This document shows, piece by piece, positions 36,733 to 57,230 of a stretch of 64,000 bases of DNA. The notes under the pieces were generated by a model. It was not told the DNA's origin, did no database searches, and saw only the letters and a program-made list of their open reading frames with translations. The stretch is from NCBI RefSeq assembly GCF_000741695.1, contig NZ_JGZK01000002.1:1-64000 (forward strand), written 5' to 3'. Each line of letters opens with the position of its first letter. Position 1 is the stretch's first letter. The stretch comes from Bifidobacterium reuteri DSM 23975 (GTDB taxonomy: Bacteria > Actinomycetota > Actinomycetes > Actinomycetales > Bifidobacteriaceae). The position numbers and the translations under genes are program-made.

Positions 36733-39105
36733 TCACGAACGCCCCAACAACAGTACCTCTTTGCGAGCACGAGTCAATGCCACATAGATGAGGCTACGCT
36801 CCCGTTTGTAGAGTTCAGCTAGCGCCAGTTTGTCCGGAGCGGACTCGACGGCCCTCTCTGGAGGGCACGCGCCTTTCTCTACATCGACGATGATAACGTA
36901 GTCAAATTCCAGGCCCTTGACTCGATGCATGGTCGCAATGCGAATGCCGCGACGTTGCCGATCCTCTTCTTCGCGACTAAGTTGATACACTCCATACGGC
37001 AGATCTCGATCAAGGGTAGACGCCCAATGTTCTACGCGGGGGCCGGTCCTTGCCACAATACAGATGTTACGAGCATCCGCATATGCTTCTGATGGCGTGG
37101 ATTCCCCGCCATCGTTATTGGCAATTTTGTTCAGACCGCATTTGCCCGCAATCCACTGCTCAACAAAGGTGATTTCATCCTCGGTAGTTGCAAATCTGCG
37201 TACGGTCGGAACGGGACCGCTGAAGAGAGAGCGACTATCACCTGCTTGTTCCGTGCTGCCATCCAAATCATCGCAAAGCACTGGCTGCGTTTCCTTGGTA
37301 TCCGTGCCGGAAGCGGCGGCAAATACCGAGTCAATGAAATCGTCTGTGTCGATTTCAAAAATACGGTCTGCTGCAGCACGTATTTCCTCAGTGGTGCGAT
37401 AGTTGATCCTCAAGCGCCTTGCGCGGCCACTGATATTGATGCCGCACTTCGACAGCACCACGGTACGTCTGTAAATTCGCTGCTGGGCATCGCCGACGAT
37501 GAATATATCATTGTCGTGCGCATCAACAAGCGAGCGTAGGACTCGGTATGCCGGAGTGGAAAAATCCTGTCCTTCGTCAACTACTACATGTGCGTATCGT
37601 TTCGTCGACCGATTGGATTCATTGAGCAGGTTGGCGGTCATGCTCATTGCCATGTCAATATCGCATGCCTGGTATTCCTTCATGAGATGCTGGTAACGGT
37701 CTACAACCTTCCATATCGCAATCTTCTGGTCGCGGCCCAATCGCGTACCACGACCGCGGCGCACCACATGCAGATAGTCAGCCGCGGATGTAACTTGCTG
37801 TGGAACGATCACCTGTTCCCATTCGCTCTTGAAAAATTCGGCAGTCAGTCCGCTCAACGAGTCAGTTCCAACATCTCGTATCGCTTCCTTCCACACCATA
37901 TCAATATTGCGCATCTGACCATCTGGACACGGATAGCCAGTGTCTTCGTACCAAATCTTGTATCCGTATCCCTTGTCTCGGAGGAAGCGATAGACGAACT
38001 TGTCAAGGTTGATCACATCGATCTTATCGAGCTCGTCATTGGTGCAGATCAGCTTCAGATTCGCCTGAATATCGGTAGCCAGGTTGGATGAGTAGGTGGT
38101 GAATAGAACTTTCTGCCGGCTCTTGCTATTGAGCAATAGTGCGGCCAATCTTTTGGCGCGGTGCATGGCGACGACGGTTTTACCCGTGCCGGCGCCACCG
38201 GTTAGACGGAACGGACCATGATAATTGCGCTCAACATACATACGCTGGGAGGAGTGAAGGAATACACGCCATTGTTCCAGAGGAGCATCAAGAAGACGCT
38301 GAAGATCGGATTCGCCTTGAACGACCACGAACGACTGCTGCGTATTGTAGGAAGACAATGCCTCCCGGAATGAAGTCGCGTGCGGTTTGACGGATGAGGT
38401 TTCCGATTGCTCGTCGGATTCGGCATGCGACGACATCGCTCCAACATGTGAAGACGATACCGTTTGTTCCAAACCAAGCAAAGGACTCGCAAGCTGAGAA
38501 CTTTCCCTGGCCATTTTCAGTACTTCCGTTTTCGATTGTCCCTCTGCGGCAAGCTGCAGATAGACACGAGCATCTTCCGGAAGTCTGCCCAGCCAATGAT
38601 TTAAATGATCCCATGTCCGTTGACGGATCATAATCGGCGCATAACTGTCGGGAACGCCGAGCTCCCTCATCTCATCTTCAGTCAATGATAAATAGTCGTT
38701 TGCTACAAGCCCGTCATGTGCTGCAGGCTCATGCAGAGCCTCGTCGCGTTCATGCTCGGTGATTTCATCAAACAACTGAATGGAGTTATTACGAGGGTTG
38801 ACTTCAATGCGTTTATTCACTGCCCACGTATATGCATCATCGTGCTTGTCCGCATACAACAACAGATATTCACTGCCGTCATAAGCCACAATAATACGGT
38901 ATTTCTGATCGATCCGAGCTGAATACATTTTTTTGTCAATTGAATTCTTAACTCGCTCCAGGTTGATACCCGTGGATTGCGGATTCCGCTGGAACTTAGT
39001 GATAAAATTCGACACCTTATGCTGGATCGTTTTCGGTAAAGCAAAGCAGGATGCTAGAAATTGCTTTCCAAACACCACTTCCGGCTTGTACGTTGCGTTT
39101 GCCAT
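36733..39105 (-). CDS. SF1 (UvrD/Rep-type) helicase with RelE-like N-terminal domain
   Basis: A 790-residue protein. Residues 1-100 look like a RelE/ParE toxin fold: VSNFITKFQRNPQSTGINLERV followed by YSARIDQKYRIIVAYDGSEYLLLYADKHDDAYTWA. The helicase starts near 295 with Walker A LTGGAGTGKTVVAMHRAKRLA; Walker B is VVVDEGQDF at about 511, then FIVGDAQQRIY, RLRINYRTTEEIR, RIATMHRVKGLEFDYVI and LIYVALTRARKEVLL. All SF1 motifs are intact. ATG 39105 shares its base with the stop of the upstream DEAD/DUF1998 gene and has AGGAGGGG. Relatives with this layout occur in defence islands, and its action is probably on nucleic acid of invaders. A longer start is not needed. Confidence 0.82.
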   Translation of the reverse strand: MANATYKPEVVFGKQFLASCFALPKTIQHKVSNFITKFQRNPQSTGINLERVKNSIDKKMYSARIDQKYRIIVAYDGSEYLLLYADKHDDAYTWAVNKRIEVNPRNNSIQLFDEITEHERDEALHEPAAHDGLVANDYLSLTEDEMRELGVPDSYAPIMIRQRTWDHLNHWLGRLPEDARVYLQLAAEGQSKTEVLKMARESSQLASPLLGLEQTVSSSHVGAMSSHAESDEQSETSSVKPHATSFREALSSYNTQQSFVVVQGESDLQRLLDAPLEQWRVFLHSSQRMYVERNYHGPFRLTGGAGTGKTVVAMHRAKRLAALLLNSKSRQKVLFTTYSSNLATDIQANLKLICTNDELDKIDVINLDKFVYRFLRDKGYGYKIWYEDTGYPCPDGQMRNIDMVWKEAIRDVGTDSLSGLTAEFFKSEWEQVIVPQQVTSAADYLHVVRRGRGTRLGRDQKIAIWKVVDRYQHLMKEYQACDIDMAMSMTANLLNESNRSTKRYAHVVVDEGQDFSTPAYRVLRSLVDAHDNDIFIVGDAQQRIYRRTVVLSKCGINISGRARRLRINYRTTEEIRAAADRIFEIDTDDFIDSVFAAASGTDTKETQPVLCDDLDGSTEQAGDSRSLFSGPVPTVRRFATTEDEITFVEQWIAGKCGLNKIANNDGGESTPSEAYADARNICIVARTGPRVEHWASTLDRDLPYGVYQLSREEEDRQRRGIRIATMHRVKGLEFDYVIIVDVEKGACPPERAVESAPDKLALAELYKRERSLIYVALTRARKEVLLLGRS

Positions 39106-42100
39106 CAATTCCCCTCCTGCTTGTTGGAAAATGCCCGCAGCACTTCTTCTTCGTTTGTCATGATATTCCATTCGCTACTGGAGAACATAGCTTTGGGGTC
39201 CTCGCAATATGAATTTGGCACCAAGAATATGATTCGTTTATCCGTCCATGCGAACGTTACGGGAATAAACACATCAGCTGATTCTTCCACATCATCTCCG
39301 GGAAGCAGGTCCGGCGCCGGAATCCCCGCACGGATAAAGGATTCAGCTGCATGACGATCCTGTGCCTCAAGGATATCGTCCTGAAGAATCCTGTACCAGT
39401 CCCCGCCGATCTGCTCTTTCTCGTTCTCAGATGCGCGTTTATTCACCGCGTCTTGACACAGCGGAGCGTATACGGTCTTACTGGCGACGGCGCTGATCGT
39501 GCCGAAACGGAATGCATCGGCGAATTGCATGATATTGGCAACATGCCAAAAACTTGCCCATTCGCGCTTGAATGATTGGCGTTCTTCGTCGTCCAGAGTC
39601 GTCAGTGGATTATCGCCATCGAGATCGACTCCATTGATGGTGTCATCGAACAGGAGATCGTACTGGTTGCTGACGGTTTTATGGTCATCTTCAAGTGAGA
39701 TACCAACGTACATATTGAGACGCTGAGCATGATGGAAATCAAATACATCACGCGCCATATAGTCCGTACTCGTGCCGATAAGCGCGTTTTCCAGCGCGGC
39801 CATGGTGTTCGCCTTTGCTGTTCCTTGCGTCATGTCTGGCCTGTCGATCATGGCGACTCCCAGCCCTTCCGCCTGAGAGGAAAGGACTTGTTCCGCATCA
39901 GGGTTCGACAAATAATACCCAAGCAGCGACAGAGCAGGAAGTTGCCCGGGATCCAGCTCGGCAGAAGATTCCACGCTCATCTTATACGCCTTCTTGCCCG
40001 GCATATCACTGACATTCAGCGCTGGATCGAGAAGACGCTTGTCATCGGGCGTTTCAAGGAAGCCCACAACATCGTCGTAGGTCAGTGACCACACTCGATA
40101 TCCGCATCGACGCAGAGCTTCACGTTTAGCCGTGTCTTCGGCAACTATCCCTGCATGGAACTGCAGCCCATCCGTAAACACGAGCACGTCTTTACGACGC
40201 TTGGCGACACCATTCGCACCATTGACCGGTTGATCATCACTGACGCAGTGCAGCCGAAAATCGGGCTTGGACAGCACTGCCGGAACATTATCAAGCCGAG
40301 AAACATCCTGCTGCAGCTCGATTTCCCATTGAGAGTCGCCGATGATCATGAGGTATCCGTCATGATGTCCGGCGCGATCAATGTACGCTTGGGTCACCAC
40401 GGCACGGCGTCCGCGCTCATCGGCTCCTTTGGCCAGAGGATTGGCGTAAAGACGACGCAACGCCTCCAGGAATTGGGCCTCCAGCTTGCTGTCCAATAGC
40501 TTGTTGACCGAGACATCCGATACGGTTGTGGTGCGCACGAACAGATCTTTGTTGCCAAGAATCGGTTCGATCATCGCCAATGCGGTCTTTTTGGAGATGC
40601 TGTCAAGATCCCGATTCTGCCGGTACGAATACAAGCAGCGGTAACAGCCATCATCGCAATCGCAATGGTTCATGGCCTCGTATGCTTGTTGTAGCACGTC
40701 GATCAGCCTGTCGCCGTTATCGGCGATCTGTTTCAGATAACCGGTTCCGCCGGGAACCGTATCGTAAATCACCAAGTAGATTTTGCGCAATCCAGAACCA
40801 TCTCGCAGAGGCTCGTTGCTCAATGTCATAGCGAGATGAGCAACATTGCCGAATATGCGTGACATACCCAGCATCACTGCGGCTGTAAACGATTTGGCCA
40901 TACTGCTGTCGCCAGAAGCATCAGCAATACCGGGAACGAGGATGCGCAGCATCTCGGTGTGAATTTCACGGAACAGGAACAAGCACTTGCTGGGTTCCTC
41001 GTCACTCAATATGTTTGTACGATTCGGACAGAAGTAAGAGTGATTGATATACCCTTTATCGTCGGCAAGCGTACCGCAGCGGACGCAGACATTGAAGCCA
41101 TTGCGTATGCGTTTTTCACCGGCGACCGTCATTTCCCTGCCGTCGGTATCGGCCTTGCCGAAGTTGATTTCGCGTACCGTTCCGTGAGGTACGTACTCGT
41201 ATGCGAAATCCGTGTCTCCATGATCGATCTTCCATGCTGATTCCACATCGTTCCGTTCGATATCGATCAACGAGTTCTTGACAAAGAGCATGCTGCTACG
41301 GTCTTCGTTGGAACCGTCAACGACGCTGTCGCTGTACCGTTCTTCCGAAATGACGGTGTCGATGCGCACCATCGGCCTTTCCTGCCCGACATCAGCCCAT
41401 TGCGCGGAACCACATGACGGACAGCTGGCCGTGTTGCGAACAGAGGAGACCGGTTCCGCATGCGAACAGTTCGGACACAGTTTCCACATCACTGTGTCTT
41501 CGTCCATATCACCTTTGGCGAACAGGATACGGTTAATCACATACTTGCGGCCGGCGGCATAGAACGTGTTGCCCGGAGCGAGTTCCGTGATGGCAGAAGC
41601 CGCCGGACGCGTGAAGTCATGGGTCTTTTCACCATCCTGCCTTGGCGAAAGATCTTCGCCTTTACCATCCTCAGTGGGGATTCTATCCTCTTTGAGGATG
41701 GTATGCAGCGTCACTCCGGACTCGGGGAATGCATAGTTTGGTAGGATACCCTGATCCGAGAGGAAATTAAATGTATTCTGATCATTCAAGTTTTTGATGA
41801 TCTTGTCGATGCCTCTAATCTCGCTGCGGCATTCGTTCTTCTGCTGCTGGTATGCCGAATCATCCGGCTTGGAGTCAAGATCCGTGATGATGGATTCGAT
41901 TTGATGCTTCTGCCGTATGAGTTCGGCGATATGAGCATTCGTCTTTTGAAATACGCGATATATTCTTAGCGGCAGGGAATGCTGTCCGCTATCCGCATCA
42001 TGTTCATTCGTGCCAAGCAGGAATTGCTCCAACTGCTCACGAAGGGCACCATCTTCTGCCGATTCTTCGAATTCGAATAGCTCGCAGAAGCGGTCAAGCA

Positions 42101-45100
42101 GCAGCATAGCATGGGACTGCACGTAATCGAGGAAAGTGAATGGGAATGCATTGCGCTGCTCTTCCCGTACATTATCTAGGCAAGATCGCAATTTAGTGGG
42201 AATGATCTCACTCGGATTCTCTCCATGAACGAGCTTCTCATGGACCCATGTGTCAAGAGCGTATGCAATGAGCTGGCGCTCCAGCACAGCGGTTGCATGC
42301 AGGAAAATATGTGGAGGAGTGACATCCCCGCCGATCATATCTAGTGGGTGCTGGTAAAAATACATGTCGTGCGGCTTGCTGTTGGCAACGGTCAACACTA
42401 ACGAGTTGCCGTCGCGACGTCCGGCACGTCCGGCACGCTGGATGTACCGTGCTTGGCTTGGCGGCATCGATGCAAGTATTACCGTGGACAGATCTCCGAT
42501 ATCGATACCCATCTCCAGCGTTGGAGTGCAGGTCAGCACGTTCACTTCGCCTGGAGTATGTTCGGAGCCTTTGAATTGCTTTTCAAGCTTCGTGCGATCA
42601 TCGCCGTCAAGCAGACTGGTATGCTCCGCTGCTCGGATACGTTCGGCCGGTTTGGAACGATACAGTTTGCCGTAGTATGACAGTTCCAATGCCGCGGTTG
42701 CATCCGTATTGAGATGCAGGCGCCCCGGGCATTGGCGGGTAATGCAGCGTGAGCCTTCCCGCACCTGCAGATTTTGCGTGGCGCACGAATAGTTTCGGCC
42801 ACAAACAGAGCATACCAATTGCGACACATCCGTGCTGATACGGCATTCGTTTTCGTTCAAACCGTATACGTGCTTTGTGCCGAATTTGCCTGCAAACTCC
42901 CGTTTGGCGATGAACCCTGCGTCAACGCACGTGTCCAAAGCACGGCTCAATAGTTCGTGGGCTATGTCTCCGACCAATGCGTTATCCGCAATGTATCGGT
43001 TAGCCATACGTACATATTCGATTGAACCGAGCGTGTCGTAGGAATCCTTGTGCGCGCCTTGGGGCGTATCCGCGAGGAATCTGGGGAGTACGTCAAAATA
43101 CGATCCGGGGCTCCACCAGTTACCGGTTTTCTTGCCATATTGCAGGAAGAACCGGTTTGCGTCTACGGCAAGGTATCTCTCATAAGAGATATCAAAAAAG
43201 GCACCCTTGGACCGAATCAGATCAAGCAGTCCGACAATCAGGCGCGCCCAATCCTCGGAATGAATCACGGCATCGTCGACACCGATTTCGTTGATGCACC
43301 GTTCACGGAATCGCATCGCCGTCTGGTTGAGTTTTTGCTGATCGAAGTACAGCGTTGCGCAACCGGATTTTTCCAATGTTCGGCCGACACGAGAACGCAG
43401 ACCGAATTCGAATAATGATTCGAGACGCAAACGGCGACCGATCCATTCGATAAGACGTCTACGCTCAGGGCCACCCGGATTGCCCGCGAGCACGGACTCA
43501 TATTCACGCATCCATGTCATATTGGGTGCAATAAACCGTACAACGTATTCCGCGTCGTTGGTGTATTGACGACGGTAGTAGTCGTTCTGACAATCAAGGA
43601 ATTGGGCGAATGTGGCGTTATCCTTGTCGTCGTGCTGGATATAGTCCATTGCCGAATTGCGAAGAGCGAAGCGCCACGTATGATCGCTGAGCGCGCTGGC
43701 GCGGAATGATGCATCCTGCACGCTGTCGGAAAATACGATGGTCTTATCATCGTCATTGTAGGCATCGGCGAAAAGTTGCGACAGCATGACACCGATCTGG
43801 GTCGTAGAGCGCAAACCCACCAGTGCGAGGCCACGTTCGCTGGCGCAGAAGGGACACCGGTAATGACGACGGTTGGGGGCCACCAGCTCAAGAACACGCT
43901 CCCGTACCGGAACCCGTTGCGAACCGCATTCCGGGCATGCGCATTCACTGCCATCGTCCGATTCCATCGTGCTGCCACGCATGCACTGTGGACAGAACCA
44001 TGCGGCCGGCACGTCGTTCAACTGTTCCTGGTCCGACTTGATATACGGTTGCAGGATCAGGAACTGGTTGTTGGGCTGGAAGGAGAAGTATGCATTATAG
44101 AATGCTTTCCTGTCCGAAGCGGTGACTCTGCCGTCTTTGCCGGTAAAGCCGATCCATGCGGTGCCACCGCAGTCACGACAGTTGATGACTGGCAGGTATT
44201 GTTCGCTGATTGTTTTGTCGAGCTCAAGGGCGGGTTTGAATTGGACCGTACCGTCAGCCGGGACGATATTCGCGGTAAGCTGGCGCAACTCCTTAGACCA
44301 CAGCTGTACCTGCACGTCAAGGAACGGGCGCGGATGATCGGCGTTCCCCGTGCGAGCATAAGAGACAAGTGCGATTAGCGCATCTACCGCCGCCTGCTGC
44401 TGTCTGGCATCAAGTTGGCTGAAACGAACGTATTGCGTAGATAGCCGGTTCAGTAGATCCGTGCCGATACGTTGTGGTTGCAATGACAGCAAAGCGGTAA
44501 GAGATGCAAGGAAGCGGGAGCGTCGAAGCTGCTGGCCAAGCGCTATGCGAGCCTGCATGCTATCGAGGTCAGCGTCGTCCGGCGCGTTAAGCCACGCCTG
44601 CGCGGCGTTTTTAAGATAGATATCCGGTTCCACATCGGATTCGAGACGAATAAGCTCATCTGCCTGTTTCCTGTCGGGAATGGTTGAATCGTATTCAAGC
44701 AGATCGGTGTCGTTGCCGGCAAAAAACTCTTCCGAACTAATGCGGTTTTCGGTTATGACTGAATGTTCCGGGTCAAATTCCGTGTGGAAGATTTCGGACG
44801 CGTACTGGCATACCGCAGCCTTGGAATCGTCGGTGCCCATGGTGGCTGAGGTGCCGATGAAACATATCTTAGAGGAGTCAGCATGCAGACGGTCGGTGAG
44901 ACGACGCAACAGACAGGCAAGATCGGTGCCTTGTGCACCGTCGAACGTGTGCAATTCGTCAACGACAAAGTATCGTAATGTGTCTTCGTCATTGTGATCC
45001 CAGAGCCGTGAATCTTCAGGACGGACCAGCAGATAGTCGAGCATCTTGTAGTTGGTGAGCAGGATGTCCGGCGGATTACTCAGCAGCGTGCCATGATCGG

Positions 45101-45659: not shown

Positions 45660-45691
45660 TGTCCTTTCCACGCACCATGGCCATTGCCTAG

Positions 45692-45697
45692 ATTGTA
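45692..45697 (-). promoter_or_regulatory. Probable -10 element of the giant helicase gene
   Basis: TACAAT on the minus strand lies about 33 bases before ATG 45659 and downstream of a hairpin, which suggests that this gene pair has its own promoter; the -35 is weak. Confidence 0.35.
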
Positions 45698-45748
45698 GCG
45701 CCCTTACAGAGCATAAAGACGGGCTATGGGGTAGCATGAGACAAACAA

Positions 45749-45774
45749 ATGACCCCGGTGAGAACCGGGGTCAT
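45749..45774 (-). terminator. Hairpin between the Abi gene and the helicase gene
   Basis: ATGACCCCGGT and ACCGGGGTCAT form an 11-bp perfect stem with a GAGA loop (45749-45774). On the minus strand TTGTTTGTCTC follows, so it can stop transcripts coming from the methylase side before the helicase gene. Confidence 0.65.
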
Positions 45775-45825: not shown

Positions 45826-46575
45826 GTGGGGACGGAATCCGGCAACCTGTTATCTCCTGCGGCGCAATCGCCAGTGGCCGAGCAGATGCTGAGTCAGCCA
45901 CGTTTGCAGCCATATCTGGATGCTGCCGATAACGATATGCAACGTGCGGTCGAACTGTACCGTTGGAATCAACGACTTACTGGAGTGGTGCTTAAACACA
46001 GCTCCGATGTGGAGATCGCGGTGAGGAACGCGTTGGACGCTCAGCTAGTTATCTTGTGCCACAACGAGTTCGGCATGGAGGACTGGATCGGCCCAGAGTC
46101 TGACAGCACGCCCGAGGAGATCTACGGTTTGTTGAGAAAAGGCATACAGGAGGCAAGGGTGCATGCGCTAGCAGAGTCCCGTCATAGACCGAAAGATCAT
46201 CCCCGATACCGTTGTGCACCCAATCGTGATGATGTGTTGGCACAGTTGACGTTTGGCACGTGGGACCTCCTGCTCGGCGCAGACTTGGCCAGCGGCATGC
46301 AGGACGCGATACAACAACGCCTGTGGAGCCAAGGGCTATGCAAGGCGTTCCCCAATGGCAGACAGGACGATGAAGGGCGTCGTCGTATTGCTGTCCGATT
46401 GAAGCGCATTCGCAAGCTTCGTAATCGTGCAGCCCATGCGGAGAACCTATTGCGAGTCGAGCCGGAGAAGCGTCTGACGGATATGCTGTCGGTGCTGTCG
46501 GCCATCAGCAAAGAGTTCTCCACATGGTCGATGCAGGCGAGCCCCTACCGCGCGATTGTCAAAGAGCGCCCATAG
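45826..46575 (+). CDS. Abi-like protein with HEPN ribonuclease motif
   Basis: A 249-residue protein resembling the Abi_2/AbiD abortive infection group. RWNQRLTGVVLKHSSDVEIAVRNALDAQL near the start and RIRKLRNRAAHAENLL near residue 200 are characteristic; RNRAAH fits the R-x4-H active site of HEPN RNases. Such proteins cut RNA after phage infection and stop growth. It starts with GTG 45826 after AAGGAT. It is the only plus-strand gene in the island and lies exactly between the methylase and the giant helicase, so it is either an added guard or regulated in opposition to them. No partner antitoxin is adjacent. Confidence 0.72.
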   Translation: MGTESGNLLSPAAQSPVAEQMLSQPRLQPYLDAADNDMQRAVELYRWNQRLTGVVLKHSSDVEIAVRNALDAQLVILCHNEFGMEDWIGPESDSTPEEIYGLLRKGIQEARVHALAESRHRPKDHPRYRCAPNRDDVLAQLTFGTWDLLLGADLASGMQDAIQQRLWSQGLCKAFPNGRQDDEGRRRIAVRLKRIRKLRNRAAHAENLLRVEPEKRLTDMLSVLSAISKEFSTWSMQASPYRAIVKERP

Positions 46576-46627: not shown

Positions 46628-49600
46628 TCAATCGGATTGCGTTGACCGTGTTGCACGATCGCTTCGCTCTACTGCAAGTTGGGATGCGTATTTGTGTTCG
46701 AAGAACGCCCATGCAGTGCGGTAATCGTCGATGCGGTCGCAGCGGTCGAATGGGGCTACGTATTCGATGGTGCGTTCGAAGGGACCGCCGGGCTGGGTGT
46801 CGTCAGTGATCGTGCGCGTGAAGACACGTCCAGCTTGCGCGTTGCGGATTTTGTTGAAATCGACCCGCTTGTAGATCAGATCGCCATAGTTCTTCTTGGA
46901 GAAGACGATGCGGCCGTTGGCGTCATACCATGTATCATCCTCGTAGCCCTTGAGCACGGTGAACGTGAGACGGTAGATGTCGATGAGCTCATCCAAGGTG
47001 AGTCCCAAGGCCATCGAGGCGAGCACGTCGAGTTCGACCAGCGCCTGACGGCGCTCATAGTCGGTGCGCAGCGGCGTATGCCAGTTCCACTCACGAGTAA
47101 GTGCGGAGAACGTCTCCGGGGTGAGACGTGGTTCGTCCTTCGCCCAGCCCATTGAGGTGTATGCATCCTCCCAGCACGATTCCCACAGTTCCGCAAACGG
47201 TTTGGTCAGGCAATTGAGGAGCAGACCGCGGAGAGCGATTTCAGAAGAGAGGCAAGAGTCTGGAATAGGAGTCATGCTTAACGTCGTGGCATTGATATTC
47301 ATTTTGCCGATAGAACGAACGAAGAAATCATACGGCAGAGCGGCCTGAAGGCCGCTCATGAGCGCAAGCAACGCGTAGCGCTCTGGGTGAACGCCATAGC
47401 CCGCTATGGCGTGCACCCAGGCTACGCCTGGGTGCACGCCGGCTAATTGCAGCGTGCGTTCGCCTGACAATGGAACCATTCCTCGACAAGCTAGCCTATA
47501 CACCGCATCGAATCGGCTTCCGTTCGCCATCTTCTGTATGCGTTGCTCGTATTCGCTATCTGAGCATGCTTGCGCGTACTTGACGCGCGGCTCGTAGTCC
47601 TCACCGATGGTGGTCAGGTCCACGAAGTCGTAATCGCTGTTGGTCTTGTAGTTGCGGCGGGTGGATTGCAGTAGCGGGTTCCCTACGCCAATGAACGGAC
47701 TGGAGAAGATCACCGGTTCGCCGTCACTCGGGAAGTGGACGTCATCCCTGATGGTGCCATCCTTGCGTGAGTTGGTCTCATGCCACATACCCGAATAGGT
47801 GACGACGTTATCGTAATCACGTAGAGTCTTTGGCACTTCAGCCATACGTTCCAGAGCAGTGACCAGCTCACGTGCATAAACACCGACCACGGGCGTAGTT
47901 CGCCATGATTCCTCGGTGCCATCCCCCACGAGTTTGGAAAACATCTTCAACGCGTGCTCGTCAACGGAAATGATGCGATCCTTATGCCCGCGGATATTCC
48001 ATGTACCGGCTGTTTCGTCCTTGATGGTCGGGATGTCACCGGAGCCGTCCGATGCATAGCATTCGTCAATGGTCTTCGGCTCATATAGATTCCAGATCGA
48101 ATCAAATCGAACCGACGTGTCTGCTAATTCAGGATTCTGGTACACATTCAGACTGAAGACAGTATGATGATCAACTCCGACGAACAGTTTCCGCTCATTG
48201 ACGAACTGGAAGTGATACTTGAGCCTACACATCATCTGTTCTCGCAGAATACTAGCCTTAGTGTCGCCATATATCTCATCCGGATGCACGAACGCGCTCA
48301 CGCCGTTCTGCTGCCGCGTGAAGTCGAAAGCGTTCGGCAGGAAGCAACGGAACAGATTCGTCTGCTGACCTTGCAACAGCGAATAGTTGCCCTTCGAGTT
48401 ATAGAACGATAACTGACCCTGAACAGATTCGAACTCGTGAACGAACGTGTCATGAGTACGCTGGTCCGTCAGCAGATCCGGCAGTTTCTTGTTCAGATCG
48501 GATGCGCTGATCGCCTTGACCGCATACCGCGGGTTCACATCGGAAATAGCGTCGGCTGCGGTCCATTGCAACTTCACCCACGGCGGGTTGCCCACCATGA
48601 AGTCGAATCCGCCATCCTTGAACACGTCAGCGAACTCCAGCTCCCAATGGAAGAAATGCTGTTCCGCAGCGATCTCCTCCACCATTCGAATACGTTCGTT
48701 GATTGGCCGGTTGCTGTTACGCAGCTCATCCAAATTCACCTTATGATCGGTCACGTAATCGTGCGGGGTCTCGTTGTCGCCCACAGCCTCATCAAGCGTG
48801 AGCTGACCGCCCTCATACAACAGGTCGAAGTTCTCGCTAGACACGTCGCCTGTCAGAATCATCGACACATCCGCCAGGTATTCGGCGCGGGTCGGCAGCT
48901 TGTCGGCCTTGCCGATCGGCCAGAACCACAGGGCGCACCAATAGTCCATCGCCAGCTTCAAACGGGCGTATTCGCTGGCGTTGCGCGCATGTTCGGACTT
49001 GTATGTTGAGTCCATCTTCTCGTCCTTCTCACGAATGGTGAGATTCACCGAGTCAAAGACGTGAGCGTCCAGAGAGCCCTGAGTGCTGTGACGATTCGAC
49101 TTCGTCAGCTTTTCCTCGTCCGTATCGCTGTAACCATAAATGGCGAGTTGATCGCGCGTATCATGCTCTAGTTTTTGCCGCTTTGCAATCTGGCCTCGCC
49201 ACAGTTCATCAGTCGCTTTGGAAAGCTGTTTCATCACATGCACCTGCGCGTCCGAATATGGCGCGGTAAATGCCTTCCGCCATTGCTTGATCATATCAAG
49301 ATGATTCCGTTCGACGGACTTGACGATTTTGTCATCATACGAACACATACCCGGATCGCCGGTAAAGAACCGGTAAACACGATTCTCGCGCGATGAGCTT
49401 GCATCAAATCCGATGCGCTTGGGCGCGACCTCATACCAGTGCCGGTTTTTCGCCTTGGTCTTCAAATCGCTCTCTGTGTAGCCGGCACGTCGTGCGCCAA
49501 TCAGCGAATTGCCGCACCGAAGCTGAGTGCCGAACCACGGTACGAACGAACCCTCGCAGATCGTGTTCAGCCACAGCGACACCTCTCCCAATTCCACGGC

Positions 49601-51511
49601 GATCGGGTTCAAATCCACGCCGTAGATGTTGCGGTCGGCGATGAACATCTTCACCCGCTGCAGTTCCGCCTGACGGCGTTCAGCCGGGATGGCCGCTCCA
49701 GGACCCTCCTCGGCCACACGCTCCTTCTCACGCATGGACAGGTACTTGGCAGCCAATTGGTTGATCGTTTCGTTCAAGAACGTCGCGGAACCCATCGCCG
49801 GTTCGCAAATTTTGAGGTTCAAGATGTCGGTGGCCTGATGAATGCGCGGCTCGATCTCCTTGAGCGCATACCGCACCAGACATTCGGCAAGAGAATCCGG
49901 CGTGTAGAACGAAGCCGAGGTCTCCCGTTCGCGACCGGCCAAACGGTAGATGAACGTGCCCGGTGCATAGGTGCGAGGTTCGCCCTTATGCGGCCCGGAT
50001 GCGTACCGTACACGTTCATCTTCCGAATACTCATGCAGCTGGCCTTCGCCTACGAAATAACCTACCTTCAACGGGTCGAAATCGTCCTGCGCGCGCTTGA
50101 CCTCATACAGTTGTTCTTTGGCAATGAACCCACGATAGGAAAGCAGCGCCTCATACACGGCACCCATCTGGCTGATGCCAAGCGTGGCATATGAGATACG
50201 CTGACGGCGAGCAATCTTCCCCTTCTTGCCAGAATCGGACTGGCCTGCCGTCGTCACGCTCATCAGATCGATGATCTGCAGCATCACGCTGTCGCGAAGC
50301 ACCGCATTTTCGATCAATGCGGTACGTTGCGGATCGAAAATATGAGCCTTCAACGGCGGCACCACGAACATGGCATCGGCTATGGCACTATTCTGCACAT
50401 GCTTTAGCATGCTGGCGCTCATCGGGTATCCATCGAACACCAGATGATTGAGCTTCCGCAGTGTATCAGCCAAGTACGTGGTGTCTTCAGCCTCATCCAT
50501 ACGTCCGCGCATCTGCTCGGCGATGTCGCGCAGGCTTTCCAGCGAATATGCGGTACGGTAAATCTCCGATTTCATCGGCGCATACCCTAGATCGGGCTTC
50601 GCCTCGATGAACAGCAGGAACAACAACCGATACATGTAACGCAGGCACTGCACGGTAAGGTCGGACGCATCAATGCCGTCAGGGCCATCGAGCGGACGTC
50701 TCTTGTTCACCGTCCAATCGTGAATCACCTCGTTGCCGAGGATCTCCACGCATTCGCGCAACGCTGAGCGCAGACTGTCGGACACGGACACCGCTTGCTT
50801 GCTGGACTCGTCATCGAATGAGTCAAGCACCGAATCACCGTCGGCTGGACACAGGCTCGTCCGGTGCAGCAGCACGGCCACGGCATTGTAGACATGTGGT
50901 TCGTTACGGCTGAAAATCGTGTCGAAGTCAAACAGCATGCACTGTTTGTCACCCCACTTACGACGGTCGATCAGCACCGCCTGATGCAAACCGATCGCAA
51001 CTATCCAACGTGCCGGCTCATCGAAATCCGCAAGCAACATGCGTGCGCATTCCTCGCAGGTATATGACGACTGTTCGACCGGGCTTTCCAGAATACTGGA
51101 ATCAGGATCATTGACGAGTGACACGAGTATCTGCACCTGCGGCCGCCCCTGGCTGTCATTCACCTGCATGTGCACAGGAATCTGCACGCCTGACTGCTGA
51201 TCGACTAGCCCGGCATTAACCACCGTGCTGGCATCGTGCACGTATCCGAGAGCATCCAACAGGCCGTCCACGAATGCGCCGATTGACTCCTCTTCGAGTA
51301 AATCGGACTCATTGTTGACGATGGCCGCATATGCTTGCCGTTGCGCCCGAACACGATACGCAGGCTTCCGCTCAGCCGGCAGATCCTTCCACTGTTCAGC
51401 GATTACCGAACGCACGGCCTTGGGGAAAAGCTCCTGCATGTAAAACGGCGTGTAGAAGCCATTGACGGATTCAAGCCCCGGAAAGGTTTCGTTCAGATCA
51501 TTGTCGCTCAT
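46628..51511 (-). CDS. N6-adenine DNA methyltransferase, Eco57I/PglX-like (DrmMI-like)
   Basis: A 1627-residue gamma-class adenine methylase with the AdoMet site near residue 570 (KICEPAMGSATFLNETINQ) and the catalytic NPPW in FMVGNPPWVKLQW near 973. The N-terminal 500 residues are helical and the C-terminal 500 resemble a target-recognition and accessory region; no restriction nuclease motif was seen. In class 1 DISARM and BREX, such large methylases mark self DNA for the system. Start ATG 51511 shares a base with the TAA of the SNF2 gene, with GGAGTG as ribosome site. Codon 1360 or so lies in a perfect 14-bp palindrome. Downstream, the Abi gene faces it. Confidence 0.85.
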   Translation of the reverse strand: MSDNDLNETFPGLESVNGFYTPFYMQELFPKAVRSVIAEQWKDLPAERKPAYRVRAQRQAYAAIVNNESDLLEEESIGAFVDGLLDALGYVHDASTVVNAGLVDQQSGVQIPVHMQVNDSQGRPQVQILVSLVNDPDSSILESPVEQSSYTCEECARMLLADFDEPARWIVAIGLHQAVLIDRRKWGDKQCMLFDFDTIFSRNEPHVYNAVAVLLHRTSLCPADGDSVLDSFDDESSKQAVSVSDSLRSALRECVEILGNEVIHDWTVNKRRPLDGPDGIDASDLTVQCLRYMYRLLFLLFIEAKPDLGYAPMKSEIYRTAYSLESLRDIAEQMRGRMDEAEDTTYLADTLRKLNHLVFDGYPMSASMLKHVQNSAIADAMFVVPPLKAHIFDPQRTALIENAVLRDSVMLQIIDLMSVTTAGQSDSGKKGKIARRQRISYATLGISQMGAVYEALLSYRGFIAKEQLYEVKRAQDDFDPLKVGYFVGEGQLHEYSEDERVRYASGPHKGEPRTYAPGTFIYRLAGRERETSASFYTPDSLAECLVRYALKEIEPRIHQATDILNLKICEPAMGSATFLNETINQLAAKYLSMREKERVAEEGPGAAIPAERRQAELQRVKMFIADRNIYGVDLNPIAVELGEVSLWLNTICEGSFVPWFGTQLRCGNSLIGARRAGYTESDLKTKAKNRHWYEVAPKRIGFDASSSRENRVYRFFTGDPGMCSYDDKIVKSVERNHLDMIKQWRKAFTAPYSDAQVHVMKQLSKATDELWRGQIAKRQKLEHDTRDQLAIYGYSDTDEEKLTKSNRHSTQGSLDAHVFDSVNLTIREKDEKMDSTYKSEHARNASEYARLKLAMDYWCALWFWPIGKADKLPTRAEYLADVSMILTGDVSSENFDLLYEGGQLTLDEAVGDNETPHDYVTDHKVNLDELRNSNRPINERIRMVEEIAAEQHFFHWELEFADVFKDGGFDFMVGNPPWVKLQWTAADAISDVNPRYAVKAISASDLNKKLPDLLTDQRTHDTFVHEFESVQGQLSFYNSKGNYSLLQGQQTNLFRCFLPNAFDFTRQQNGVSAFVHPDEIYGDTKASILREQMMCRLKYHFQFVNERKLFVGVDHHTVFSLNVYQNPELADTSVRFDSIWNLYEPKTIDECYASDGSGDIPTIKDETAGTWNIRGHKDRIISVDEHALKMFSKLVGDGTEESWRTTPVVGVYARELVTALERMAEVPKTLRDYDNVVTYSGMWHETNSRKDGTIRDDVHFPSDGEPVIFSSPFIGVGNPLLQSTRRNYKTNSDYDFVDLTTIGEDYEPRVKYAQACSDSEYEQRIQKMANGSRFDAVYRLACRGMVPLSGERTLQLAGVHPGVAWVHAIAGYGVHPERYALLALMSGLQAALPYDFFVRSIGKMNINATTLSMTPIPDSCLSSEIALRGLLLNCLTKPFAELWESCWEDAYTSMGWAKDEPRLTPETFSALTREWNWHTPLRTDYERRQALVELDVLASMALGLTLDELIDIYRLTFTVLKGYEDDTWYDANGRIVFSKKNYGDLIYKRVDFNKIRNAQAGRVFTRTITDDTQPGGPFERTIEYVAPFDRCDRIDDYRTAWAFFEHKYASQLAVERSDRATRSTQSD
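47408..47440. repeat. Perfect palindrome inside the methylase gene
   Basis: GGCGTGCACCCAGG (47408-47421) and CCTGGGTGCACGCC (47427-47440) flank a 5-base loop. A second hairpin GCCATAG-CCCG-CTATGGC lies next to it (47393-47410) and a third, imperfect copy of the arm follows at about 47383. They encode the repeated peptide pattern GVHPG...GVHPE. Confidence 0.8.
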
Positions 51512-54500
51512 TAGTTCACTCCTACAAACGCCGCAGCAATGCGGATTACCGGCTCTCCTGACGCGGTCAGCGTTTCGTTGACCCACTCATCATATTCGTC
51601 GTACATATCATCGAGTTTGCGCTGCTGATCGGCCAGATCGGAATAACCGGCGATAACGAGGCTTCGTCGATTCCTCCACTCCGTAATGCGCTCGAGCTGC
51701 TTATCGATCTCCGGGCGGGCAACATTCTGCTCGTAAGCGTCACCTCGTTGCCACAGTTCCTTCCGGCCTCGCCGCACCGCGTCGGCTAGCAATAATTGCG
51801 CATGCTCAACCTGCTGTTCCGACGGTTCGGAATTTGCGGTATTGGCATACTCATACCGTTCCGAGTTCGGCTCCTTGCGGCCACGATAGCCGGTGATCTT
51901 CCACACATCTTCCATCGGCAACAGATCAACGAACTCGTCATTGCGATATCGCAGCCCAAACCACTCATCCAGCACCGGTGTGGCATGCTCATTCGCAATC
52001 ATGCCGGTTAGCAGGATGATTGTCTCGTCGTCAGCCAACCTGCCGTTCGTCACGCCGATGATCGGCGCCTCCCCACGTCGATACAACAGTGACGTAGCTT
52101 TGGTGCTGATCCATTCCATCAACGGATTCAATGCCCATAGATACTGGGTCCGACTCCAATTTTCTCCACGAAGCTGGGCGGTGATGCCATGCGCCATGCG
52201 TTCGCAGTAGCTTGCATCAGTGCTCCAAGTGCCGGTATCCTCACGCAAGGTCTCCGTATTCGGCACCCGCCGACGCAACCATGCACGTAGAGGGCTGTCC
52301 TTATCAAACGTCACGGTAAAACCTTGCGCGTCCGTTAGTTGCTGAAGAGACCGTATCTTGGTGGAATCCTTGAATTCCGTGCAATTCAGGCCCTTCCACG
52401 CGTAAGAATAGTCGTCCATTAGCGTAAGGTTCGTATTCGCACGGTCACTATCCACATCGCCACCGTCCGCAGCATCGCTGTTGCCGTCATCGGCGTTGTT
52501 CATGATTCGCGAAAGCAGATAACCGGATAGGTCGAATGCCGATTCGCTATCGACAGCCTCGCTTCGTCCGTCATTGTTGCCAGTATGACTTACCGTGCGG
52601 TCTTCATCGATGTCCTCATCGGGAATACGCAACAGTTCGCCGAACTCGGCGGCCGACATGTCTGATTCCATGGCGTTGCGAGTGACGGCTTCCTCATCCT
52701 CGATGTCGAATTTGCCCATCAACAGCGCGGGATCGCCGATATTGCTGTACGCCTGCTGTTCCTTCTCGCGTAAAATCTCCAGGATACGAGCATCGCCCTT
52801 GATTTTCTCGTTATGAGAATCAATGGCCATAAAACGAATATCCGGCTGTTCGCGCTGCCCGTAACGGTCGATACGACCATTACGCTGTTGAAACACCATC
52901 AGTGACCATGGAGTATCGAAATGAATAAGACGATGGCTCAAATAGTGGAGGTTCAAACCCTCGGAAGCCACATCCGAAGCAATCAGCACTCGGATCGGCG
53001 ATGTTCGCTTGCCAAACTGTTCGACGATCTTCTGCTGATCAAGGTCGCTCATCTGCCCATCCATCGATACGATGGCGCCTTTCGGCAACGAGAGATCCTC
53101 ACGCAGGCGCGACTCCAGATAGTTCTTCGTCTCGATGCGTTCGGTGAAAATAACGATGCGGTCATCGGGCCTCTTGCCATCCCAACCGTACGCCGGATTC
53201 CGCAGCATTGAAAGGAGCTGGACATAACGAGAAAAGTGCCGTGGCGTAATACGCTCAAGTATTGAACGGAACTCCTCAAGTTTGGCCGCATCGCCGGTTC
53301 GATCAGCGGAATCGATCTTCCTAAGCTTCTTCAGTCGCGCGTCAATAGTCGCGATACAAGCCGCAGGAGACGAGAACAGGCTCTTCTCCAGCAGCGTACG
53401 AAACAGTCCGGAATTGGCATTGCGACGATTGACGTCCATACGCAGATGCATGGATGTCAGACAGTCGAATGCCTCCTCTTCGACCGATGAGGCTTCGCAG
53501 TGAATCTGCGTGACCTTTCGTTCCGGGAAACGTCCCGATACGTCACCAATCACGTCCTTCTTGAATCGACGAACATACAGCTGGCGAATATCAGCCTTCG
53601 TGTAATTGTCCGGGTCGGGTAATGTGGTCGGGTCAAGCATGTTCATCAGCGAAGCGAAACTGCGCGCCTTACCATCATGCGGCGTTGCGGATAACATAAT
53701 CAACGTGTCCGAACGGGAGGCAAGCCGCTGAGCCAATCGTGAGCGTTGCGCCTTACGCGAGCCGCTACTGCGATCAGCGACGTTCTGCGCCTCGTCAATC
53801 ACGATAATGTCCCAGTATGATGCATCGAGCGCCGCACCATACTGAATATCGCGTTTGATCGTGTCGATAGAGACAATCACCTTGTCGTAATATGAAAATG
53901 GATTCGCATTCGCCGGTATTTCGGAACGGATTTGTTGAATGCGCGACGAGTCCAAACTGATCAGCGGAATCGTAAACCGCTCCCACATCTCCTTCTGGAA
54001 CTGGAGCATCATGCTCTTGGCTGTCACGACAAGAATGCGACGGCCCTTATGCCGTTTGATAAGCTCCGACATGAGAATGCCAGCCTCCAGCGTTTTGCCG
54101 AGGCCCACCGCATCGGCTATGAGAATACGCTGACGAGGTTGAGAAAGGGCCTGCTTGGCCGGAACAAGCTGATACGGCAGCGAATCCATGGCGGCCTTGT
54201 CTCCGACATGAATCTCCTGATCCGTCGGAGCCGTGGATCTCAACAGGCTTTCGATAAACAAATGGGAACGATCCGCATGTTCCGACATGTCGGGAATAAA
54301 CCGAGTCTTGACAGGATCGACCGGCTCGATATCGTCAAGATCATCGAGGAATGTCGACTGTGAATCACGGACAAGCGGAGAAATTCCGGTACACGTCACG
54401 GCATGATTTCCAAGTGAATTTGTCTCGACCTTGGAGATGAGCCATTCCTGGCCACGCACCAATACGCGCATTCCCGGAGACAGAATGCTCTGCTGATTCT

Positions 54501-54540
54501 TCAGATTATTGTCGGTTATTTGTGACTGAATCAATGCCAT
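51511..54540 (-). CDS. SNF2-type helicase/ATPase (DrmD-like)
   Basis: A 1009-residue SF2 protein. Walker A is ILIADAVGLGKTLEAGIL (about 140-157), box II IVIDEAQNVADRSSGSRK near 250, motif III LIMLSATPHDGKA, and helicase C has VLIASDVASEGLNLHYLSHRLI and FQQRNGRIDRYGQREQPD near 545. The N-terminal 100 residues contain an SH3-like LSPGMRVLVRGQEWLISKV segment seen in the RapA/HepA-like group. DrmD of class 1 DISARM is a SNF2 protein adjacent to a DrmMI methylase, as here. The start ATG 54540 is the first Met after a TTG-led extension, but its AGGAG abuts the ATG, which is unusually close. The gene overlaps the methylase start. Confidence 0.85.
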   Translation of the reverse strand: MALIQSQITDNNLKNQQSILSPGMRVLVRGQEWLISKVETNSLGNHAVTCTGISPLVRDSQSTFLDDLDDIEPVDPVKTRFIPDMSEHADRSHLFIESLLRSTAPTDQEIHVGDKAAMDSLPYQLVPAKQALSQPRQRILIADAVGLGKTLEAGILMSELIKRHKGRRILVVTAKSMMLQFQKEMWERFTIPLISLDSSRIQQIRSEIPANANPFSYYDKVIVSIDTIKRDIQYGAALDASYWDIIVIDEAQNVADRSSGSRKAQRSRLAQRLASRSDTLIMLSATPHDGKARSFASLMNMLDPTTLPDPDNYTKADIRQLYVRRFKKDVIGDVSGRFPERKVTQIHCEASSVEEEAFDCLTSMHLRMDVNRRNANSGLFRTLLEKSLFSSPAACIATIDARLKKLRKIDSADRTGDAAKLEEFRSILERITPRHFSRYVQLLSMLRNPAYGWDGKRPDDRIVIFTERIETKNYLESRLREDLSLPKGAIVSMDGQMSDLDQQKIVEQFGKRTSPIRVLIASDVASEGLNLHYLSHRLIHFDTPWSLMVFQQRNGRIDRYGQREQPDIRFMAIDSHNEKIKGDARILEILREKEQQAYSNIGDPALLMGKFDIEDEEAVTRNAMESDMSAAEFGELLRIPDEDIDEDRTVSHTGNNDGRSEAVDSESAFDLSGYLLSRIMNNADDGNSDAADGGDVDSDRANTNLTLMDDYSYAWKGLNCTEFKDSTKIRSLQQLTDAQGFTVTFDKDSPLRAWLRRRVPNTETLREDTGTWSTDASYCERMAHGITAQLRGENWSRTQYLWALNPLMEWISTKATSLLYRRGEAPIIGVTNGRLADDETIILLTGMIANEHATPVLDEWFGLRYRNDEFVDLLPMEDVWKITGYRGRKEPNSERYEYANTANSEPSEQQVEHAQLLLADAVRRGRKELWQRGDAYEQNVARPEIDKQLERITEWRNRRSLVIAGYSDLADQQRKLDDMYDEYDEWVNETLTASGEPVIRIAAAFVGVN

Positions 54541-54562: not shown

Positions 54563-55450
54563 TTACTGCACGAATTGCACAACAATGAAGTATTGGATCT
54601 GCCGGCCGGACCGGGACAATGCCAAACTGGAGAATACTGGTTCTCCTTCTTCGGTCGTCCAGAGTTTCACTACATCATTGTCTTTTACCCTTTTGCGATT
54701 ATGAAATGCATCAATCATCGTGCGCTCCACCGCCATGAGCTCGTCATCAAAAGAGACCGTCCCATCACGATGAGCGCGCACTTTGACCTTCCGACCCTGA
54801 ACCAAGGCCACAAAGCCCGGGTATTCCAGAAAATCCGCCATTCTCCGGACGATCGCCGGACGAGACACCCGTACGATATTCGGATCCGGATCTTCGCGAC
54901 CTTTTTCAAAGATGTAATTCACCATGCGAGCGTCAATCGCCCCTCCACGACGAACGTCATTGACGTAATTCGTCGGAAGCAAGGCGACCGCGGCGAACCG
55001 ATTACAGGCTTCCTCTTCCAGTTTTTTGTCAAGATTCAGATCGGTAATCGAGAATAACCGAGTGACTAGCTCATCATCGGTTTGCTGCAGGTAATGCCCC
55101 AGCTCATGTAACAAGGTGAAATTAGGACGTGCGGTATTATCTCGTCCTCTCCGGTATTGGACCTGAATTATATTATCTTCATGCTCCTCCAGTGCAGGAC
55201 TGAACAGACCTAATAAGTCATGCTGATCATCGACAACGGTGCCGTCTTGCTGCGCTAGATGGCTATGCAAAACCGAATTAACAGCTTTCACGCATACTTC
55301 ATTCTTCCAATGCGCGGCAAGAGACCACGGATCATGTAAACAGTCCTCGGCAAATTCCGGATGCCGATCATGAGCCAGATCAAGCATCCGGACAACCTGA
55401 TGGTTGAGGGCCTCAATATATCGAGGAGAACCAGGCGCGCTATCGCTCAT
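54563..55450 (-). CDS. ImmA/IrrE-family metallopeptidase
   Basis: A 295-residue protein with the zinc motif FTLLHELGHYLQQ (about residue 112-124) and the downstream EEEACNRFAAVALLP, both typical of ImmA/IrrE (COG2856) peptidases that cleave repressor proteins in response to stress. Its ATG overlaps the previous stop (ATGA), so the unknown protein just upstream is a good candidate for its target or partner. The C-terminal 100 residues have a basic beta-rich part (GRKVKVRAHRDGTVSF). Within this island it may derepress the system on phage or DNA stress; that is inference. Confidence 0.82.
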   Translation of the reverse strand: MSDSAPGSPRYIEALNHQVVRMLDLAHDRHPEFAEDCLHDPWSLAAHWKNEVCVKAVNSVLHSHLAQQDGTVVDDQHDLLGLFSPALEEHEDNIIQVQYRRGRDNTARPNFTLLHELGHYLQQTDDELVTRLFSITDLNLDKKLEEEACNRFAAVALLPTNYVNDVRRGGAIDARMVNYIFEKGREDPDPNIVRVSRPAIVRRMADFLEYPGFVALVQGRKVKVRAHRDGTVSFDDELMAVERTMIDAFHNRKRVKDNDVVKLWTTEEGEPVFSSLALSRSGRQIQYFIVVQFVQ

Positions 55451-56391
55451 CTACCGCTTTCTTCAATCACGCTCTCAACAGCTTTACGGAATGCTCCCCG
55501 TATCGCCTCCTCACCATGACCGGACGTTCGCGCTGCAAGCTCGAACTGAGCCTTATGCGCAAGCTGCATACGAGGGTCAGCCTGTACGCCAGAGCGGGCA
55601 TTCGCCTCGGCGATCGCGGAAGCAGCGTCATACCATTGCGGCTGTTCGGCCATAATCAGGTAATCGTCTGCAATCGTCTCCTGCTTGTGAGGTTGTGTCG
55701 CATAACCGGCATCGGCCATTTTCTGCTGTTGCTCGGGAGTGAGCGTTCGTCCCCGGCTTACAGCCAGTCTCTGCGCTGGAGTCAAATGCAATACAGTCTT
55801 CAGCGCTTCCGAATATGCGGCTAGGTCATCATCCGTGCGATATTCCATCGTTTCCTTGCCGTGCAGCTTCGGCAGCTTGGCGCACATGGCATGCCATGCT
55901 TCCATGCATCTGCGAATCTCGACAATCGCCTTTGCCGCAGACGTTGTCGCATCCTCCGGAGTTGTCGCGCGTTCAATGCCAAGCGCATCATCCTCGCGGT
56001 CATTGACCAGCGCATCGGACGCGGCTTGTCCGAATTCGCCCAACGGCTTGAACAGTATGCGGACCGGCACTTCGGTCGCCAACTGCGGCCATGCGACCAT
56101 AGTCATGCCCAATGGAGTATTGCGCACCACCAATGCCTCTTCGGTTCGCTCAGCGTCATTGTTGCTCATCGGAATCGCCGTGATAAGACGCGCGTCATCA
56201 TTCACGCCTCCGACCAGTACATACTGGGCGCCGACCTCGGTTTTCGCCATCCACAGCTGACCGGCAGCCACAGGCTGCTCCAGCCGCTTCGCAATGTATT
56301 CCGGATTCTCGAGGCGGAAGATTTCGTCTGGAATCGCAGATGCTGGAAGCGTAAATGAACGCCTCATCGGCGTCTGAACATGTTCTACCAT
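55447..56391 (-). CDS. Unknown defence-island protein, 314 aa
   Basis: Not recognised. The N-terminal 120 residues look like a beta-barrel similar in pattern to PemK/MazF or SH3 folds: AAGQLWMAKTEVGAQYVLVGG and ARLITAIPMSN, LGMTMVAWP, VPVRILFKPLGEF. The middle has LHLTPAQRLAVSRGRTLTPEQQQKMADAGYA, which could be a helix-turn-helix. It overlaps the ImmA/IrrE gene (ATGA) and the gene before it (7 bases), and has a strong GGAGGTG site. As ImmA/IrrE peptidases are often paired with a repressor, a regulator role is a fair guess. Confidence 0.6.
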   Translation of the reverse strand: MVEHVQTPMRRSFTLPASAIPDEIFRLENPEYIAKRLEQPVAAGQLWMAKTEVGAQYVLVGGVNDDARLITAIPMSNNDAERTEEALVVRNTPLGMTMVAWPQLATEVPVRILFKPLGEFGQAASDALVNDREDDALGIERATTPEDATTSAAKAIVEIRRCMEAWHAMCAKLPKLHGKETMEYRTDDDLAAYSEALKTVLHLTPAQRLAVSRGRTLTPEQQQKMADAGYATQPHKQETIADDYLIMAEQPQWYDAASAIAEANARSGVQADPRMQLAHKAQFELAARTSGHGEEAIRGAFRKAVESVIEESGR

Positions 56392-57230
56392 GATTCACCT
56401 CCGTGCTCATCAATGGAATAATCGTCGGTATCATCGTCATTCATGCCGACGGATTCATAGGTTATGTTCGTCAGATCCACATCGGTATCGGCATAGGTGT
56501 ATTTGTCCGATTCGTCTTGAACCATATATGGATGAAGATTGATGATGGCTCGTGTCAGCACGTTGATCGCCACAGAGCCCTCAGCCTTCTGCAGGATACC
56601 GCTGAGGCACGCAATCATCTGTTTGCGATCCAGGAATGGCCGTCGACTGCGCTTCCCCTTTCGGTAATCATCATATTGCCGGTCATCGGGCCAATCGATC
56701 AGTCTCCTATAGGGCCATGCAAACGAACGAATCTCCTGTTCCGAGAATCTCGTCTGCAACGGGGAGCAGGTCTGTAGATGCCATAGATTGGTTTCCGGCA
56801 CATTCGCGAAACTCGTGCCATCAACGACGGTTGCAGCTATCTCCATATCGTGTTCGATGACGCGTCTGGTCAAGCCAAATTCCGTCATGTCAAACAAGTC
56901 AGCGAACCAATGTTTGATTTCACCGCGAATACCGGACTCGAATTCAGCATCCGTTCCAGAGGAGTGCAGCAGTTTGATGATTTGCGGATTGATGCTCTTC
57001 TCCTCATAATCGAGCGAGGTCATGCCCTTGCTCTTTCTTGTATTGGAAAAGATGAATTTCATGGTCCACGTATCGGGATCAGTGGAGCCGAACCTCGCCA
57101 CGATGGCGGGATTAAGACCCGTCGCATATCCAGACGATTCCAGTTTCGGAGATATAGCGTTGTATATCAGATCATAGAGTCTGGCAAAACAACGGTCCTC
57201 CAGCAGCTCTTTACCGTAACTTGTCGGCAT
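56385..57230 (-). CDS. Unknown first gene of the defence operon, 281 aa
   Basis: Not recognised. The protein starts MPTSYGKELLEDRCFARLYDLI and contains LTRRVIEHDMEIAATVVDG, several tryptophans and a very acidic end (DESDKYTYADTDVDLTNI, NDDDTDDYSIDEHGGESW). No membrane segment, signal peptide or clear catalytic motif is visible. ATG 57230 has a GGGGAGGAG ribosome site. It opens the operon of overlapping genes that ends with the methylase, so it is probably a specific component or its regulator. Its lower GC fits the island. Confidence 0.6.
   Translation of the reverse strand: MPTSYGKELLEDRCFARLYDLIYNAISPKLESSGYATGLNPAIVARFGSTDPDTWTMKFIFSNTRKSKGMTSLDYEEKSINPQIIKLLHSSGTDAEFESGIRGEIKHWFADLFDMTEFGLTRRVIEHDMEIAATVVDGTSFANVPETNLWHLQTCSPLQTRFSEQEIRSFAWPYRRLIDWPDDRQYDDYRKGKRSRRPFLDRKQMIACLSGILQKAEGSVAINVLTRAIINLHPYMVQDESDKYTYADTDVDLTNITYESVGMNDDDTDDYSIDEHGGESW

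Follow-up and report, generated by a model that had tools for sequence, protein, structure and literature searches.

What kind of defence system is encoded at 36733..57230 of the 64,000-nucleotide (nt) stretch of Bifidobacterium reuteri DSM 23975 analysed here (the window), and do the three genes at its front belong to that system? An earlier note, made from the letters alone, described a composite of DISARM parts that could be a separate, undescribed variant or a Druantia/DISARM hybrid. Gene order, sequence and the residues of the active sites identify the four large genes, armA to armD, as an ARMADA type II system. The leading genes, U281, U314 and M78, are read from the sequence as a block separate from that core. 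The full reading, an ARMADA II operon with a separate cassette that is likely a protease-gated controller of the defence behind it, is given an even chance.

The ARMADA core

Open reading frame calls place eight genes in 36733-57230 of the window, seven on the minus strand and one on the plus strand. From upstream to downstream, the minus-strand genes are U281, U314, the M78 peptidase, the SNF2 helicase (ArmA), the methylase (ArmB), ArmC and ArmD. The core genes, with lengths in amino acids (aa), are as follows:

51511..54540, minus strand: ArmA, SNF2/BrxHII-like helicase, 1009 aa counted from an ATG that has a ribosome-binding-site-like sequence; Walker A at 54091-54111
46628..51511, minus strand: ArmB, PglX/type IIG-like adenine methylase (Eco57I/PglX-like), 1627 aa; NPPW at 48578-48589
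39105..45659, minus strand: ArmC, YprA/DruE-like superfamily 2 helicase, 2184 aa, from profiles and a ribosome-binding-site-like sequence at ATG 45659; DEAD at 44835-45425, Helicase_C at 42414-42653, MZB/DUF1998 at 40632-40790 (Pfam for MZB)
about 40068-40187, minus strand: Vsr-like C-terminal stretch of ArmC, from alignment to E. coli ArmC and the assignment in the ARMADA preprint, with no profile hit
36733..39105, minus strand: ArmD, RelE-like N-terminus (38842-39033) and UvrD/GajB-like helicase, 790 aa, from profiles

ARMADA type II was described in a preprint of September 2025 (Bell et al., PMC12458937). That text defines it as a BrxHII-like helicase, a PglX-like methylase, a YprA-like helicase and a RelE-GajB-like helicase in strict order, and terms ARMADA a 'missing link' of DISARM and Druantia. 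It reports protection against 13 of 80 phages, for which all four genes are needed. The window has these four genes in this order, interrupted only by an antisense Abi_2-like gene. The comparison system came from E. coli ATCC 8739, which is the figure 4 strain in PMC12458937, and was taken from another assembly of that strain. The proteins are homologous along their length, with identities of 41.9% over 925 residues (ArmA), 38.5% over 1532 (ArmB), 32.5% over 2015 (ArmC) and 38.3% over 690 (ArmD). All eight Walker and methylase residues mutated in PMC12458937, numbered on NCTC 12900 and needed for defence in E. coli, are conserved in both the window and ATCC 8739. The fourth gene has the RelE-like and UvrD parts; in the YprA-like helicase, MZB is recognised by Pfam and the Vsr-like end solely through the alignment to E. 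coli ArmC. The core itself is already known and is not new. Unlike the described system, it is preceded in the window by U281-U314-M78 and split by the antisense gene, and a term search of the preprint text available found no mention of the cassette or the insertion.

The domains named in the earlier note are present: SNF2/DrmD-like, Eco57I/PglX-like methylase, a DEAD and MZB (DUF1998) giant, UvrD and the M78 peptidase. The window shares with class 1 DISARM the SNF2 (DrmD-like), methylase (DrmMI-like) and YprA/DUF1998 helicase parts, and with Druantia an ArmC whose nearest PADLOC profiles are those of DruE (377 bits). Were the set a true DISARM or Druantia variant, these DrmD-, DrmMI-like and DruE matches in PADLOC and NCBIfam would be accounted for, but the full match to ARMADA II makes this very improbable. 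PADLOC (2023) scores ArmA as DrmD at 347 bits, and its 363 bits against the NCBIfam DrmD profile fall under the curated cut-off of 610. The top PADLOC profile of ArmB is a type IIG enzyme (738 bits) and not DrmMI (213 bits), which corrects the DrmMI-type label. Helicase and DUF1998 do lie in one 2184-aa chain, a length that matches ATG 45659 with its ribosome-binding-site-like sequence, instead of in separate drmA and drmB genes; the DruE score far exceeds that of DrmA (70 bits), which speaks against the proposed drmA/drmB-type name. As the note had said, drmC is missing: it was not among the PADLOC and Pfam matches listed for the island proteins (ten proteins scanned with PADLOC). ArmD is an additional gene relative to DISARM. 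Its RelE/YoeB-like N-terminus is present as proposed but weak (Pfam E of about 0.02, under the cut-off). Compared with Druantia, the window has SNF2, methylase and UvrD genes in place of a partner; neither DruH nor another Druantia partner gene was among the PADLOC matches listed for the other island proteins. Membership in class 1 DISARM is already refuted by the missing parts, and the undescribed hybrid was rejected on the ARMADA II match. The anatomy of a separate system between DISARM and Druantia was right, and is that of ARMADA II, while 'undescribed' was wrong for the four core genes.

The core order recurs in unrelated genomes, a check that the note had proposed, but the leading block is not part of what is conserved. 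All four identities were measured for the same order in Aulosira laxa and Gemmobacter fulvus. An E. coli plasmid has the order by annotation, with tblastn for B and C, and so does a Tsukamurella plasmid, in which C is split over two genes. On the latter (L123:1-4416), the armA-like gene is immediately preceded by two genes annotated as helicase-related and as DUF1998, whose arrangement is DrmA/DrmB-like. Two Bifidobacterium genomes (G409, G371) have open frames for all four arm genes in the same order, and in a third (G354) the armB and armC frames are interrupted. Among five Clostridia loci, L005 and L008 have A, B, an extra 607-622-aa gene and C, with a further 263-aa frame in L008; L006 stops within armB, L007 has fragments of A and B on a contig of 4 kb, and in L004 armC was not seen up to the locus end. 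The extra gene (L005:17719-19542, L008:18673-20541) has weak and differing matches, to PDC-M55C/NsnA/HEC-05 in one and to pAgo in the other. Among complete genomes of E. coli, an E. coli armC is present in 518 of 5426. At order level, P0002 has matches at E 0.001 in 243 of 248 genomes, most of them over short helicase stretches; sequence matches below 1e-90 occur in 25 genomes including the window's own.

The U281-U314-M78 cassette

The three leading genes are:

56385..57230, minus strand: U281, cassette gene 1, 281 aa; predicted helical at low confidence, no known family match
55447..56391, minus strand: U314, proposed two-headed adaptor, 314 aa; predicted MazF-like fold at residues 35-134 (55990-56289), linker near residues 176-186 (55834-55866), helical half at residues 150-314 (55450-55944)
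54563..55450, minus strand: M78 (ImmA/IrrE/CapP-like) metallopeptidase, 295 aa; PF06114 at 26.0 bits (cut-off 22), HELGH at 55094-55108

U281 has two database matches, itself included. Its AlphaFold2 model (predicted local distance difference test score 48) is unusable. M78 resembles PADLOC capP (47 bits) and IrrE (E 0.0018), and its zinc-ligand motifs are kept. The MazF-like fold of U314 comes from the predicted model, the listed fold matches cover the N-domain, and no sequence-family match was found. The arginine of the MazF/PemK RP motif is catalytic. The position aligned to it never holds R in U314: all 23 gap-free rows have Q, L, E or M there, in a profile alignment to PemK that is weak (probability 11%). 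An active MazF RNase is weakened as a candidate by this missing arginine, subject to the same weak alignment. U314 thus resembles MazF/PemK in predicted fold and differs in this position, in its long helical C-half and in having no sequence-family match. Of two candidates for the C-half, a relative of the Max protein (E 0.08) was taken as chance, and a helix-turn-helix repressor like CapH is so far unsupported by profile comparison.

Homologs of U314 occur at 19 loci in 14 of 189 Bifidobacteriaceae genomes. A phylum-wide search with the single U314 sequence found it in 1 of 296 genomes, the window's own, and all named U314 database matches are Bifidobacterium. Within the searches made, the cassette appears confined to Bifidobacteriaceae; the U281 and U314 database searches compare by words and could have overlooked distant relatives outside Bifidobacterium. 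The cassette was absent from viral contigs in two scans, leaving viral spread unsupported. No description of the cassette, its partners or the half-swapping adaptor was recognised among the papers listed by the literature searches.

An adjacent downstream peptidase with HExxH and a third-ligand motif is present at 17 of the 19 U314 loci. L119 and L120 are without one, though in L119 a weak M78 match lies some 490 nt beyond. A gene at the U281 position was taken from 16 loci (L111, L119 and L120 dropped), of which 10 are tied by phmmer to one of three U281 references and 3 are those references.

At least four kinds of predicted defence core go with the cassette: ARMADA II, class 1 DISARM, an M78-SNF2 fusion, and an M78-PD-(D/E)XK fusion with a UvrD partner. 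In the window it lies directly before armA. In G351:C16 it precedes the drmD, split in two frames, of a class 1 DISARM locus that continues with drmMI (1586 bits), a 5'-nucleotidase-like PDC-S08 gene, drmA, drmB and drmC. G375 and G348 each have the peptidase joined to an SNF2 helicase, recognised by profiles in G375, where a DUF4391 gene follows, and through phmmer alone in G348. In G448 the fusion is to a PD-(D/E)XK protein, and a UvrD protein comes next. A second cassette copy in the window's own genome (L039, G000:C17:233834-237687) is followed by a gene for a 278-aa RQC-domain protein; diverging from that copy are type I restriction-modification-like genes.

The leading block is placed outside the ARMADA core because other ARMADA II genomes are without U314 and because the cassette occurs without ARMADA. 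Likewise, ARMADA does not need the cassette, since only one of the four Bifidobacterium ARMADA II genomes found has it.

Recombination within U314

Across the 16 loci, U281 correlates with the N-half of U314 (r 0.80) more than with its C-half (0.49), and M78 correlates with the C-half (r 0.82) more than with the N-half (0.47). The correlation switches at residues 171-183. By this sequence comparison the U314 halves recombine at the linker, the N-half going with U281 and the C-half with the peptidase.

Proposed control of the defence

CapP and IrrE/PprI peptidases are activated by single-stranded DNA, and CapH with CapP, and CapW, control adjacent immune operons, as reported in PMC13373217 and PMC10904395, the latter for PprI/IrrE activation. 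The retained zinc ligands of M78, its resemblance to CapP and IrrE, and these relatives together favour a protease-gated controller. Like CapH+CapP, the window has a CapP-like M78 gene with its zinc ligands kept, in a small module before an immune operon. It differs in having a MazF-fold, two-half protein and U281 in place of a recognised helix-turn-helix repressor, and in a peptidase that at some loci forms one chain with a helicase or nuclease protein. Because no such repressor was recognised, the cassette is not a proven CapH+CapP system.

We infer that U281-U314-M78 may be a portable protease-gated immunity controller, with U314 as a pseudo-MazF two-headed adaptor having exchangeable sensor-side and effector-side halves. 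Such a controller would serve at least four cores, could be built into the effector, and would act on protein and not on transcription only. This specific version is held tentatively, at somewhat below even chance. The degenerate MazF-fold head of U314 would bind U281, a sensor or inhibitor, and the helical head would bind the M78 peptidase. A signal of infection, for example single-stranded DNA, would activate M78, which would then cut U314 or a partner and release the downstream defence. In the fused forms, the arrangement suggests action on the effector protein itself. As for the core, work in E. coli and on related systems would have ArmB mark or recognise self DNA. The ArmA, ArmC and ArmD motors would engage unmarked phage DNA, and the Vsr-like end of ArmC would cut it, the cell not being killed. 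PMC13192584 describes the related DruE as a helicase-nuclease on intermediates containing single-stranded DNA.

Several observations weigh against the controller. Neither Pfam nor profile comparison recognised a DNA-binding helix-turn-helix repressor in U281 or U314. No defence core was recognised directly behind the peptidase in 11 of the 17 peptidase-bearing loci, where not all neighbours were scanned, and U314 is absent from the three other Bifidobacterium ARMADA II genomes. The U281-position gene of L118 has no phmmer tie, and the frames of L109 and L115 lie outside the tested set. Cassette recombination without any binding could yield the same correlations between neighbours. The last consideration, a possible uncoupling of armC-armD, is taken up below.

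The loci with no recognised partner, and the occurrence of ARMADA without the cassette, are also what would be expected of an independent toxin-antitoxin-like or defence unit beside ARMADA. Here U314 would be the MazF-fold toxin, consistent with its predicted fold, U281 the antitoxin and M78 the protease that frees the toxin. This alternative is considered less likely: the PemK arginine position is never R in the 23 rows, although the alignment is weak, and a bystander would not be expected to lie so close in front of ARMADA and DISARM, nor to have its peptidase fused to an effector in three loci.

The insertion between armB and armC

The gene between armB and armC, and the terminator-like hairpin at the end of the operon, are:

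45826..46575, plus strand: Abi_2/PD-T4-5-like gene, 249 aa, antisense; Pfam 27.3 bits (cut-off 25.6)
36640..36685, minus strand: long terminator-like hairpin behind armD; fold z -5.6 for 36620-36740, 0 of 200 shuffles equally stable

The Abi_2-like gene matches PD-T4-5 in PADLOC (58 bits) and sits precisely between armB and armC, both of which are intact. The same junction in G409, G371 and G354 is without it, and relatives of the gene occur in 55 of 189 family genomes. The earlier note's minus-strand block is correct for the seven genes that fill 36733-57230, but this plus-strand gene had been missed. Its claim of near-universal 1-7-base overlaps holds for four junctions (U281/U314, 7 nt; U314/M78, 4 nt; ArmA/ArmB, 1 nt; ArmC/ArmD, 1 nt) and not for the gaps of 22 nt between M78 and ArmA and of 968 nt between ArmB and ArmC, the latter due to the Abi_2-like gene. 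Chosen starts are those with a ribosome-binding-site-like sequence, with the exception of M78, which has none.

The insertion, together with a terminator-like stem at 45775-45748 in the reading direction of the operon, may uncouple armC-armD from the front. A decaying island, with its ARMADA copy silent or half expressed, would fit the 968-nt gap with its antisense gene, this stem and the absence of promoter-like sites in 45500-46800. It is nonetheless improbable, since all seven frames are open and the catalytic residues are conserved, and neither signal departs from expectation: one terminator against a shuffle mean of 0.9, and zero promoter-like sites against 0.7.

Island site and borders

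The GC fraction in 2-kb windows is 0.50-0.57 inside the block, and 0.58-0.66 at 3-36 kb and from 57 kb on; positions 1-4 kb of the window are likewise AT-rich (0.48-0.59). The relative G348 shares the flanks (window 33813-36564 and 57980-63598, aligned pieces 76-91% identical). Between them it has 3.46 kb of other sequence compared with 21.4 kb in the window, and the site is therefore variable. One tRNA at the gathering threshold was the RNA element found in the whole window.

At the downstream side, 35521-36564 (plus strand) encodes a ZnuA-ZinT fusion of 347 aa, whose frame is 552-570 aa in four relatives; the window copy is without an internal stretch of about 570 bp relative to G348. Near the upstream edge, 57560-57700 (minus strand), read by eye, resembles the beginning of a zinc-ribbon protein and may be part of a host gene interrupted by the insertion.

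Behind drmC of the DISARM locus described above (L041/L050, G351:C16:20963-49428) lies an ArmD-like RelE-UvrD gene, 38% identical to the window ArmD. It is followed by genes for a PD-(D/E)XK protein and a further UvrD protein; both of these have relatives in L110 and L115, and the PD-(D/E)XK protein also in L106.

Implications

With this core, a defence class that was defined recently and validated by experiment is placed in a Bifidobacterium island, its gene order preserved. That an ArmD-like gene follows a DISARM locus suggests an exchange of parts between the ARMADA and DISARM classes. If the cassette is a controller, unrelated large DNA-degrading defences of one lineage would be under one exchangeable gate, and the natural half-swaps would make its partner specificity directly testable.

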